Position numbers and translations under genes: made by a program
Part shown: in pieces, positions 57,936 through 63,868 of the stretch
Numbering within the stretch: position 1 is the first letter of the stretch
Layout of the letters: every line of letters starts with the position of its first letter
Origin: Candidatus Sulfotelmatobacter kueseliae
GTDB taxonomy: Bacteria; Acidobacteriota; Terriglobia; Terriglobales; Acidobacteriaceae
Length of the DNA stretch: 64,000 bases
NCBI GenBank assembly: GCA_900290255.1
Contig: OMOD01000007.1
Span: 46,000 to 109,999 of the forward strand
Direction: 5' to 3'
Notes under the pieces: model-generated
The model's input: the letters and a program-made list of their open reading frames with translations, nothing else
Databases searched by the model: none
What the model was told of the DNA's origin: nothing

Positions 57936-59873
57936 ATGAGCAAGATTATCGGAATTGACCTGGGGACAACCAATTCCTGCGTGGCTGTCATGGAGGGCGG
58001 TGAGCCCAAAGTGATCCCCAATGAAGAAGGAGGGCGGACCACGCCTTCCGTGGTCGGCTTCACCAAGACCGGAGAGCGGCTGGTGGGGCAGGTGGCCAAG
58101 CGGCAGGCCATCACTAATCCGGAAAACACCGTGTATTCGATCAAGCGGTTCATGGGACGCCGCTTCGACGAAGTCAGCGAAGAAATGAAGATGGTCCCAT
58201 TCAAAGTCGTGCAGTCGGGCGACCACGTCGGCGTGATGGCGCAGGGCAAGGAGTATACTCCGCCGCAGATTTCGGCGCTGATCCTGCAGAAACTGAAGAA
58301 GGCGGCGGAAGACTATCTCGGCGAAAAGGTCACCGAGGCGGTCATCACCGTGCCCGCGTATTTCAACGATGCGCAGCGGCAAGCCACCAAAGACGCCGGG
58401 CAGATTGCCGGGCTGGAAGTGAAGCGCATCATCAACGAGCCGACGGCGGCGGCGCTCGCCTACGGTCTCGACAAAGGAAAAGACGAGACCATCGCCGTTT
58501 ATGACTTTGGCGGCGGCACCTTCGATATTTCCATCCTGGAAGTCGGCGAGGGCGTGATCGAGGTCAAGGCTACCAACGGCGACACCCACCTGGGCGGCGA
58601 CAACCTGGATCAGCGGTTGGTGGATTGGCTGATTGACGAGTTCAAGAAAGACGAAGGCCTCGACCTGCGCGGCAAGGGCAATGAGATGGCGCTGCAGCGT
58701 CTGCGCGACGCGGCGGAGCGCGCCAAGATTGAGCTTTCGACCACCATGGAGACCGAAATCAATCTGCCCTTCATCACGGCGGATGCCAGCGGCCCCAAGC
58801 ACCTGGTCAAAAAACTGACCCGGGCCAAGCTCGAAGGCATGGTCGAGGACCTCATTCAGCGCTCGGTCGGCCCGTGCAAGCAGTGCATGAAAGATGCGGG
58901 TATCGACGCCAGCAAGATCAACGAAGTCGTGCTGGTCGGCGGGCAGACCCGCATGCCTCGCATCCAGCAGCTGGTAAAAGAGCTGTTCGGACGCGAAGGC
59001 CACAAGGGCGTGAATCCCGACGAAGTGGTCGCGGTGGGTGCGGCGATTCAGGGCGGCGTGCTCAAGGGGGAAGTCAAAGACCTGTTGCTGCTCGACGTAA
59101 CTCCGCTGACGCTCTCGATCGAGACGCTGGGCGGGGTTTCCACCCCGATGATCCCGCGCAACACGACCATTCCGACCCGCAAGACGGAGACGTTCTCGAC
59201 CGCGGCCGACAGCCAGACCTCGGTTGAAGTCCACGTGCTGCAGGGTGAGCGCCCCATGGCGGGGCAGAACCGGACGCTGGGCAAGTTCCACCTGACTGGC
59301 ATTCCGCCGGCTCCGCGCGGCGTGCCGCAAATCGAGGTGACGTTCGATATTGACGCCAACGGCATCCTGAACGTGACCGCGAAAGATACGGCCACGCAAA
59401 AGGACCAGAAGATCACGATTACGTCGTCCTCCGGCCTGTCGAAGGACGAGGTCGAGCGCATGGCCAAGGAGGCCGACGCGCACTCGGCCGAAGACAAGGT
59501 CAAGCGCGACGAAATCGAAGCCCGCAACCAGCTCGACTCGATGGTCTACAACATCGAGAAGATGCTGCGCGAGCAAGGCGACAAGATTTCGGGCTCGGAG
59601 CGCGGCGACGTCGAAAACGCTGTGGCCGACGCCAAGAAGGCGCTGGAATCGAACGACAAGACCACTATGGACAAGGCCCGCGAAAAGCTGACCCAGGCTT
59701 CGCACAAGCTGGCCGAGCAGATGTACAAGGCGGCCCAGGCGCAGCCGGGGGCTGGTCCGGGAGCAGGTGGTCCGACGCCCGGAGCAGGTGCCCAGCCCGG
59801 CGGCGACGGCAAGGCCAAGAAAGACGAAGGCGTGATCGACGCCGAGTACGTGGATGTAGAAGATAAAAAGTAA
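57936..59873 (+). CDS. dnaK: Molecular chaperone DnaK (Hsp70)
   Basis: [51 protein letters not shown]; full length. Confidence 0.98.
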
Positions 59874-61725: not shown

Positions 61726-63135
61726 TTGGCAACCGCTAGCGCCCCGCGTCGACAACTCGAACATCCCCAACCCCTCGCCGCCGTCCCCAACCGGAAAAGA
61801 TTCGTCCGCCTCACGCTCTGGCCCCTGGTCGCCGCCACCTTCTTTATGGTGTCGGGCGGAACCTATGGCACAGAAGAGATCGTGCATGGCGCCGGCTACG
61901 GACGCGCGATCCTGATTCTGCTCGTCACGCCTCTGCTCTGGAGCCTGCCGACCGCCTTCATGATCGGCGAGCTTTCGAGCGCGCTGCCCTTCGAAGGTGG
62001 ATACTACGCCTGGGTGCGCCGCGCCATGGGCAACTTCTGGGGATTTCAGGAAGCCTGGCTTTCGCTGGTGGCGTCCATTTTCGATATGGCGATCTATCCC
62101 ACGCTATTCGTGGCCTACCTGACCCGGATGTTCCCGTGGTTCCAGGAGGGCAATCGCGGATGGTGGGTGGCATTGTTCGTCGTGGTCGCGTGCGCACTGC
62201 TGAATATTGCCGGGGTGAAGGTGGTGTCGCTCACCTCGCTGTGGCTGTTCCTGGCGCTGTCAGCGCCCTTCGTGGCGATCGTGATACTGGCGCCGTTCAA
62301 GGTCAGCGCGCTGGTCAACGCCGTGACCAAGCCAACGACTTCCACCGTAGACATTCTGGGCGGCCTGCTCATCTGCATGTGGAACTACATGGGATGGGAC
62401 AATGCCTCGACCATCGCGACCGAAGTCGAGCGTCCGCAGCGCACTTATCCGCGGGCGATGCTGGTCGCGGTCTGCATCGTAGCCGTGAGCTACATCCTGC
62501 CCTTCGCCGCCATGTGGATGACCGGCCTGAAGGCCACCGCATGGGAGACCGGCTCATGGGCTGACATCGCGGGACTGTTGGGCGGGCCGCTGCTGCGTAT
62601 CGGCGTGGTGCTCGGTGGCATGATGAGTGCCTTCGGCATGTTCAACGCGCTGGTGATGAGCTATTCGCGCCTGCCGCTGGCCATGGCGCAGGACGGCATG
62701 CTCCCCAGCGTCTTCGGCAAACTGCAGAAGAAGTCGCGGGCGCCCTGGGTTGCCATCATCGGGCTGGCCATCGGATGGGCGATGTGCCTGGGCCTGGGCT
62801 TTGCCCGTCTGGTCACGCTCGACATTCTCCTCTACGGCTTCAGCCTGGTGCTGGAGTTCATGGCGCTGGCGGTGCTGCGCTTCCGCGAACCGGAACTGGC
62901 TCGGCCGTTCAGGGTACCGGGCGGGTTGTTCGGAGCCATCGCCATCGGCATTCCTCCGGCTCTGTTGCTCGGCTTCTCGGTGGTGAGGAGCGAACATGAG
63001 TCGGTGCTCGGCATGAGTTCGTTTGCCTTCGGAATGATCCTGATCGCGGCTGGCTTCGTGGCCTATTTCGTTAATCACGCGCTCAAGCCGGCGGGGTGGT
63101 CGGCGCCCGAAAGCAAACCACAGCCCGCGGCCTAG
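61726..63135 (+). CDS. APC family amino acid permease
   Basis: TTG start; FFMVSGGTYGTEEIVHGAGYGRAILILLVTPLLWSLPTAFMIGELSSALPFEGGYYAWVRRAMG; multiple TM segments. Confidence 0.88.
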   Translation: MATASAPRRQLEHPQPLAAVPNRKRFVRLTLWPLVAATFFMVSGGTYGTEEIVHGAGYGRAILILLVTPLLWSLPTAFMIGELSSALPFEGGYYAWVRRAMGNFWGFQEAWLSLVASIFDMAIYPTLFVAYLTRMFPWFQEGNRGWWVALFVVVACALLNIAGVKVVSLTSLWLFLALSAPFVAIVILAPFKVSALVNAVTKPTTSTVDILGGLLICMWNYMGWDNASTIATEVERPQRTYPRAMLVAVCIVAVSYILPFAAMWMTGLKATAWETGSWADIAGLLGGPLLRIGVVLGGMMSAFGMFNALVMSYSRLPLAMAQDGMLPSVFGKLQKKSRAPWVAIIGLAIGWAMCLGLGFARLVTLDILLYGFSLVLEFMALAVLRFREPELARPFRVPGGLFGAIAIGIPPALLLGFSVVRSEHESVLGMSSFAFGMILIAAGFVAYFVNHALKPAGWSAPESKPQPAA

Positions 63136-63143
63136 ATTCATTG

Positions 63144-63245
63144 CCACGGATTCACACGGATCCACCAGATCATGTTGGGGACAGCCGCCCTCGGCTGTCC
63201 GGCCGAGCGAAGCTCGACAGCGCTAGAATCCGTGCTGATCCGTGG
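63144..63245. repeat. Family P2 palindrome interrupted by family P1 copy C
   Basis: CCACGGATTCACACGGAT (63144-63161) ... P1 (63171-63223) ... ATCCGTGCTGATCCGTGG (63228-63245). Confidence 0.8.
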
Positions 63246-63274
63246 CTGATTTGTTTCTGCTATAAATAGTCGCG

Positions 63275-63391
63275 ATGACCAAACGCAAATCTAAAGGTGC
63301 ATACATGTTGAGCCGATTTGCGGGCGTGAGCGAAGCGGGAGCCCGCAGGCGAAATCCCGAGCGGAGCGAGGGAACCCGTGACCAAGCGTAA
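63275..63391 (+). CDS. Possible 38-aa upstream ORF beginning with a duplicated HspR N-terminus
   Basis: ATG ACC AAA CGC AAA TCT AAA GGT GCA TAC ATG ... TAA = MTKRKSKGAYMLSRFAGVSEAGARRRNPERSEGTRDQA*; first 11 aa identical to HspR. Confidence 0.45.
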   Translation: MTKRKSKGAYMLSRFAGVSEAGARRRNPERSEGTRDQA

Positions 63392-63779
63392 ATCCAAGGG
63401 CGCATACATGATCTCGGCCGTGGCCGAAATGTACGGCATTCATCCCCAGACGCTCCGCCTCTACGAGCGTGAAGGGCTGCTCAAGCCCTCGCGCACCGAG
63501 GGCAACACCCGCCTCTACACCGAAGAAGACCTGCAGCGGTTGGAATTCATTCTCACGCTGGCCCGTGATCTGGCGGTGAATATCTCGGGCATCGCCATCA
63601 TCCTGCAGATGCGCGAGCGTATGGAGGAGATGCAGCGCCAGATTCACGAATTCGTGCAGTACATCCAGCAGGAAGTGCTCACCCGCGCCACCGCGGCGGC
63701 CGATCCCTCGAAGGGCGCGATTGTGCCGGTGCGAAGAGCGATGGTCGCACCAACTGTGCAAACGCAAAAGAAACGGTGA
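63378..63779 (+). CDS. hspR: MerR-family heat-shock regulator HspR
   Basis: GTG start; MTKRKSKGAYMISAVAEMYGIHPQTLRLYEREGLLKPSRTEGNTRLYTEEDLQRLEFILTLARDLAVNISGIAIIL. Confidence 0.92.
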   Translation: MTKRKSKGAYMISAVAEMYGIHPQTLRLYEREGLLKPSRTEGNTRLYTEEDLQRLEFILTLARDLAVNISGIAIILQMRERMEEMQRQIHEFVQYIQQEVLTRATAAADPSKGAIVPVRRAMVAPTVQTQKKR

Positions 63780-63868
63780 CCGATCTCACATCACAGTTCG
63801 TCCCAAGCAGAACGATCAAGCCTGTTCACACTTGGATCATCTGCCCGATACCGTACTAGTGCAGTGCG

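Follow-up and report, generated by a model that had tools for sequence, protein, structure and literature searches.

The start of the heat-shock repressor gene hspR in the window (the whole 64,000-nucleotide stretch of DNA that was analysed) occurs twice, on either side of a 70-bp dispersed element, and comparable duplications of gene edges around copies of this element were identified at protein-encoding, tRNA and rnpB genes in related genomes. As judged from the sequences compared, the two copies of such an edge diverged inside intact genes, under protein- or tRNA-level constraint. We propose that a replacement edge, derived from another lineage, accompanies the insert as part of it or in linkage with it; the gene would thereby be restored and its native edge left as a remnant, an interpretation which we consider reasonably probable.

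The duplicated hspR start

The preliminary description of this DNA reported two copies of the hspR start separated by a palindromic insert, and both were found to be present, namely ATGACCAAACGCAAATCTAAAGGTGCATACATG on the left (outer) side and GTGACCAAGCGTAAATCCAAGGGCGCATACATG on the right (inner) side (Table 1). The copies differ at 6 of 33 positions, comprising the start codon and five third-position synonymous transitions, and the spacer between them is exactly 70 nt. The 38-aa ORF which is opened by the left copy was likewise confirmed, its TAA (63389 to 63391) being located within the hspR start in a different frame; profile comparison of this ORF returned no family match.

Table 1. Features at the hspR start in the window and the basis on which each was assigned
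Feature	Position	Strand	Basis
Left (outer) hspR start copy, MTKRKSKGAYM, ATG	63275..63307	+	Sequence; flush against the element
Dispersed two-hairpin element, TTGAG type, 70 bp	63308..63377	+	Matches elsewhere in the genome and in relatives
hspR-locus subfamily of the element, ending GGGAACCC	63308..63377	+	Sequence
Element hairpin 1	63312..63350	+	Predicted DNA fold
Element hairpin 2, CCCGAGCGGAGCGAGGG	63355..63373	+	Predicted fold
GAGGGA, Shine-Dalgarno-like element end	63368..63373	+	Sequence; 4 nt 5' of GTG
Right (inner) hspR start copy, GTG, joined to the intact gene	63378..63410	+	Sequence
hspR, 133 aa, MerR-type heat-shock repressor	63378..63779	+	NCBIfam NF047375, best match
38-aa ORF across the left copy and the element, ending inside hspR	63275..63391	+	Sequence

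The deduced hspR product matched the NCBIfam HspR family with 103.2 bits, which is just below the curated cut-off of 105. The gene is located downstream of dnaK (57936 to 59873), dnaJ and a gene for an APC-type transporter, the last of which was identified by inspection, and close relatives of hspR are present in most genomes of the genus. Upstream of hspR, positions 63143 to 63246 harbor a nest of other dispersed palindromes, in which an inverted repeat, GCCACGGATTCACACGGAT ... ATCCGTGCTGATCCGTGGC, resembling sequences upstream of hspR in many relatives, encloses a second palindrome, GGGGACAGCCGCC...GGCTGTCC, which also occurs elsewhere in this genome. Between 63261 and 63275, a TATAAAT motif ends approximately 8 nt 5' of the ATG at 63275, and the original hspR message could have been nearly leaderless at the first copy. 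Native hspR leaders are highly variable among relatives.

The dispersed element and the gene edges beside it

A search of the source genome with the region of the hspR start returned nine places, and the element consensus was detected in 33 of the 37 genomes of the genus. Of the 80 genera represented by 397 sampled genomes of the order, 39 had a strong match to the element, and outside the family the consensus was found in only 2 of 24 sampled genomes. Rfam yielded no match up to E = 1 across positions 63100 to 63800, and no description of the element was found in the open-access literature searched. The predicted DNA fold contains two hairpins, the second of which constitutes, by itself, a commoner dispersed repeat, as is apparent from many short matches within the genome to query positions 47 to 69. 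As a single copy is not predicted to fold with unusual stability (DNA z = -0.8), the designation of the element as palindromic rests on the two hairpins together with paired changes among copies, as judged by eye.

Approximately 120 regions were fetched, among which 132 distinct copies were examined that begin with TTGAG after A-A-(G/C), with A at position -3 in 93%, A at position -2 in 77% and G or C at position -1 in 95%; 14 copies begin with TGAC. A flanking direct duplicate was identified for 81 of the 132 TTGAG copies, compared to 9 of 393 mismatched control pairs. The outer copy ends no more than 2 nt from TTGAG in 74 of these 81 duplicates, and the inner copy starts between 0 and approximately 50 nt past the element (more in arrays) and continues into the intact gene. 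As edge copies which are too decayed cannot be aligned, this sample is biased toward young insertions, and old, decayed insertions are missed.

The duplicated stretches are variable in length, at about 15 to 80 nt, and comprise start-codon edges (hspR, infA, mutL, mnmG, dnaJ, hbd of the 3-hydroxyacyl-CoA dehydrogenase type and a lolC-like gene), stop-codon edges (an oppC-like gene, a yifB-like gene and an amidohydrolase gene) and the edges of RNA genes (tRNA 3' and 5' ends and rnpB), these names being based on inspection of the translations and sequences. The copies cease to resemble each other at the gene edge or a few bases from it, and the flanks beyond are unrelated even where the coding part is >90% identical, with the exception of some infA copies, in which ribosome-binding sites past the gene edge are also shared. 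Tandem arrays of element and edge exist as well, such as the 103-bp units at hspR of genome G181.

Comparison of the hspR 5' region among relatives revealed the insert and the duplicated start in nine genomes belonging to at least four genera. The insertion lies after codon 11 in G000, G006, G010, G258 and G391, which belong to this genus, and in G281, G358 and G181, which represent three other genera; in the remaining case (locus L063) it lies after codon 18. Chance is excluded as an explanation, because seven further genomes have the two-copy structure and the same insert at this very codon, and the ninth has them seven codons further in. The same joints recur in different genomes at infA, hbd, yifB and the lolC-like gene, and the genomes with recurrence at the same codon of hspR, infA, hbd and yifB are mostly of different genera. 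In five genomes of three genera, hspR-locus elements are approximately 95% identical on average (94 to 98% between genera), compared to 85% for elements at other loci of the same five genomes, and the hspR-locus element is degraded in three further genomes.

Divergence of the two copies and origin of the inner edge

Codon differences between outer and inner copies were counted in 30 protein cases, from which the infA copies of L214 and L236 were left out owing to indels. At gene starts, 95 of these differences are silent and 15 are replacements, and at gene stops all 26 are silent, with an overall ratio of 121:15. Were half of the differences due to drift in a useless copy, the expected number of replacements would be approximately 53, with a minimum of 42 in 1,000 simulations. 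The tRNA-Leu copies of L168 differ in their variable-arm stems, which are nonetheless intact when paired by eye (GGGC/GCCC versus GTCC/GGAC). It is the dominance of silent changes, including those in stop-type fragments which cannot be translated, that points to divergence of both copies inside intact genes. The suggestion in the preliminary description that the copies had recombined from a related allele gains support, since silent-only divergence is general and extends to the C-terminal fragments.

By composition and by distance to orthologues, the outer copy is native and the gene-attached edge atypical in three of the four loci tested (yifB, hbd and the amidohydrolase gene). At yifB of G279, the outer copy has a GC3 of 0.94, identical to that of the gene body, compared to 0.65 for the inner edge, and 26 of 29 orthologues are nearer to it than to the inner edge, with one tie. 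For hbd of G231, all 14 orthologues are nearer to the outer copy, and GC3 is 0.31 in the inner edge before the joint and 0.70 in the body after the joint. For the amidohydrolase gene of G225, the outer copy is closer to 15 of 19 orthologues, and GC3 is 0.50 for the inner edge and 0.90 for the body; the copies at dnaJ of G181 do not differ in this respect (6 versus 9 orthologues). In a count over all pairs, third positions that have G/C in the outer copy and A/T in the inner copy number 55, compared to 29 with the reverse arrangement (P = 0.006). The hspR gene of the window presents the reverse, its left copy being the odd one (GC3 of 0.33 versus 0.67), over a length of only nine codons, and an attempt to call native and foreign copies at hspR from the 30-nt starts was abandoned, as these contain too little signal (rho of about 0.3 between distances of native starts and of bodies). 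A donor search with the hbd edge returned nothing close. The best candidate donors of the yifB edge belong to other genera of the family (G391, dR of 5 versus dL of 9), having been picked by searching with that same edge.

Under the proposed replacement of gene edges, the insert in the window would encompass the 103 bp from 63308 to 63410, that is, the 70-bp element and the second hspR start, and would follow codon 11 of the resident hspR. The second start would be the allele of another lineage, and its differences from the first would thus be only silent. The new GTG start and the ribosome-binding-like GAGGGA would restore hspR, and the resident start would be left upstream as a cut-off remnant. 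More generally, entry of the insert and its replacement edge would take place behind A-A-(G/C), at a distance of 15 to 80 nt from the edge of the target gene, upon which the inner edge would complete the gene and the native edge would stay outside and decay over time. The earlier view that the first copy is the ancestral start, displaced by a palindromic element, is supported in outline, as this copy keeps the promoter-side flank common to relatives which lack the insert, and the insert is a dispersed element.

We infer that the element and the replacement edge arrive together, and that the choice of target is enzymatic, in a homing-like or transposase-like manner, rather than the result of homologous exchange alone. 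The joining itself may be enzymatic and homing-like or may proceed by homologous exchange between alleles which already possess the element. The GAGGGA at the end of the element, 4 nt from the GTG, would be able to serve hspR as a ribosome-binding site, and translation of HspR therefore probably starts at GTG 63378; in relatives such as L010, the native leader has a similar end (CGAGGGAACCTGTG). Extended to the other loci, these observations may describe a new kind of mobile cassette, in which a hairpin element of approximately 70 bp homes into conserved gene edges and brings a synonymous copy of the edge, such that essential genes survive and locus-specific lineages (of hspR, infA, yifB, tRNA-Leu and others) spread between genera, a generalization which is put forward tentatively.

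Alternatively, the element may transpose with long target duplications of about 20 to 80 bp, of which only those spanning a gene edge are tolerated, with the copies drifting apart thereafter. The arrangement of target, element and target, in which the left copy directly adjoins the element, would be expected of such a process, several copy pairs (at infA, tRNA genes and rnpB) are identical, and at hspR the left start lies nearer to the right start of its own genome than in random pairings (P = 0.002). The observed 26 silent and 0 replacement changes, however, cannot have arisen by drift in a useless copy, the length of the duplication varies and stops at or near the gene edge, with unrelated flanks beyond, and the atypical edge is the inner and not the outer one in three loci. 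This alternative is accordingly regarded as unlikely, if deserving of some weight.

The hspR locus also bears on the possibility of a single old insertion in the family ancestor, the arrangement having since disappeared from most lineages as its repeats recombined with each other. The identical insertion codon in several genera and the repeated joints at infA, hbd and yifB are in keeping with such a history, as are G391 and G006, which have the flank, the right copy and the insert in common and are plausibly a vertical pair. Against it, the element differs by about 3% and the hspR body by about 23% between G000 and G281, which are of different genera, and old useless copies should have decayed; we therefore give a single ancestral insertion little credence. 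Bodies of hspR group with the lineage of their own genome, irrespective of whether the element is present, and wholesale transfer of hspR with the element was rejected on this basis. Between this genome and G281, the right starts differ at 1 of 30 nt, compared to 76 of 330 for the bodies, a likeness which falls within the lowest 0.2% of the background and which, being one of 36 pairs, is only suggestive. In general, right hspR copies are no more alike between genomes than left copies, and the left and right start of one genome differ from each other as much as the starts of related species do. A drop in identity past the element between L105 (G281) and L071 or L091 was considered as a junction and dropped, as the two element-free genomes are similarly low in body identity to each other.

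The preliminary description also raised the possibility that the upstream copy is a translated leader which controls HspR by translational coupling, with both copies maintained by peptide-level selection. In the eight hspR loci checked, the leader ORF is indeed open and overlaps the hspR start, ending 4 to 14 nt beyond the element, and silent-only differences are seen in most of these loci. Divergence inside intact genes, however, means that selection for a leader peptide is not the cause, and the stop-type outer fragments, being C-terminal pieces devoid of a start, cannot be explained by it even though they exhibit the same silent-only pattern. At several other genes, the stop of the equivalent ORF lies within the element itself. 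Moreover, decay of the upstream copy in relatives, which had been named as evidence against a conserved leader, was found in G006 (K to N and M to I), the infA leader copies of L214 and L236 are frameshifted, and in G010 the upstream hspR copy differs by A/T. Selection on a leader peptide was consequently rejected as improbable, and the leader ORF is a by-product of the insertion, although its end may be coupled to the start of hspR. At L284 (G358), it is the inner hspR start that contains replacements (LIRRKSKGAYM), the outer copy still reading MTKRKSKGAYM, the opposite of outer-copy decay.

Finally, an assembly artefact, conceivable for a metagenome-assembled draft of 198 contigs with 8% contamination, is highly improbable in view of the identical structure, at the identical codon, in independent assemblies of other species.

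Relation to known systems

The closest parallel found is that of hybrid genes in fungal mitochondria, in which mobile ORFs (mORFs) introduce a foreign C-terminus, as described for atp6 of Allomyces and for atp6, atp9, cox2 and nad3 of Glomus (PMC3630166). In both systems, the insert brings a foreign gene end which completes the gene, and the native end is left behind; in the fungal case it remains beyond the insert and matches that of relatives, and in atp6 the DNA differences between this native end and theirs are all synonymous (PMC3630166). The insert in fungi encodes an endonuclease, measures several hundred bases and is located at 3' ends (PMC3630166), whereas the bacterial element described here is 70 bp long, non-coding and situated at 5' ends, 3' ends, tRNA genes and rnpB. 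An outer native and inner foreign copy with mostly synonymous differences was found at yifB, hbd and the amidohydrolase gene, the copies at dnaJ and at hspR of the window being indistinguishable in this respect, and no homing endonuclease is encoded by the 70-bp insert, the 38-aa ORF being without a family match.

If the proposed replacement of gene edges is right, a tiny non-coding element can invade the ends of essential bacterial genes, which are spared by means of a silently altered spare edge. To our knowledge, edge-supplying insertion in such a form is known only for the much larger, endonuclease-coding inserts of fungal mitochondria. The proposal would also account for features of acidobacterial genomes which are otherwise puzzling, namely duplications with silent differences only, truncated ends of tRNA genes and alternative start codons, and would provide dozens of natural cases in which to study the movement of the insert and the exchange of short stretches of conserved genes between genera.

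Integrative elements and phages restore gene ends from their own att site, as exemplified by SXT in prfC, and are large and encode an integrase. As in the present case, the version of the incoming DNA replaces the gene end and the cut-off native end remains; the insert described here, in contrast, is about 0.1 kb and encodes nothing, its 70-bp element leaving no room for an integrase gene. A transposon with a target-site duplication of fixed length was also considered and set aside, as the lengths vary and similarity ends at or near the gene edge.

Among small mobile sequences (reviewed in PMC2229807), palindromic elements of Rickettsia are inserted inside conserved protein and RNA genes and become part of the gene product, whereas here the product is restored free of the element. 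REP sequences, which are associated with RAYT transposases, and the GTAG- and CGTC-tagged palindromes are similarly short, dispersed, hairpin-forming and non-coding (PMC3733652), and related tyrosine transposases are present in acidobacterial genomes. The present element differs in being longer and in residing inside gene edges with duplication of the edge, and mobilization as a REP by RAYT was rejected given that copies begin with TTGAG or TGAC and lack a GTAG-type tag. No full element was found to flank any of 30 Y1_Tnp loci in eight genomes, among which L403, L395 and L394 contain only partial matches of 21 to 33 nt, and a Y1 transposase was rejected as a helper for this reason. In the window, a 160-aa Y1-type transposase ORF (Pfam PF01797; 57199 to 57681, minus strand) adjoins dnaK about 6 kb from the element and is not flanked by element copies.

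MIRUs (mycobacterial interspersed repetitive units) are small repeats which are located at start and stop codons, can be read as short ORFs overlapping the next gene and are able to form tandem arrays. The present element resembles them in all three of these properties. We know of no MIRU that carries or duplicates a divergent copy of the end of a neighboring gene. The TGAC sub-type sits on stop codons, several of them within ribosomal operons, and is not accompanied by edge duplication; at L222, L224 and L235 it occupies the same place in three genomes, where it provides the stop codon between ribosomal protein genes, again with no duplication. Arrays at L109 (G181; 2107 to 2498), L196, L212, L304 and L320, involving hspR, tRNA and other genes, are minisatellite-like in appearance and lie beside essential genes.
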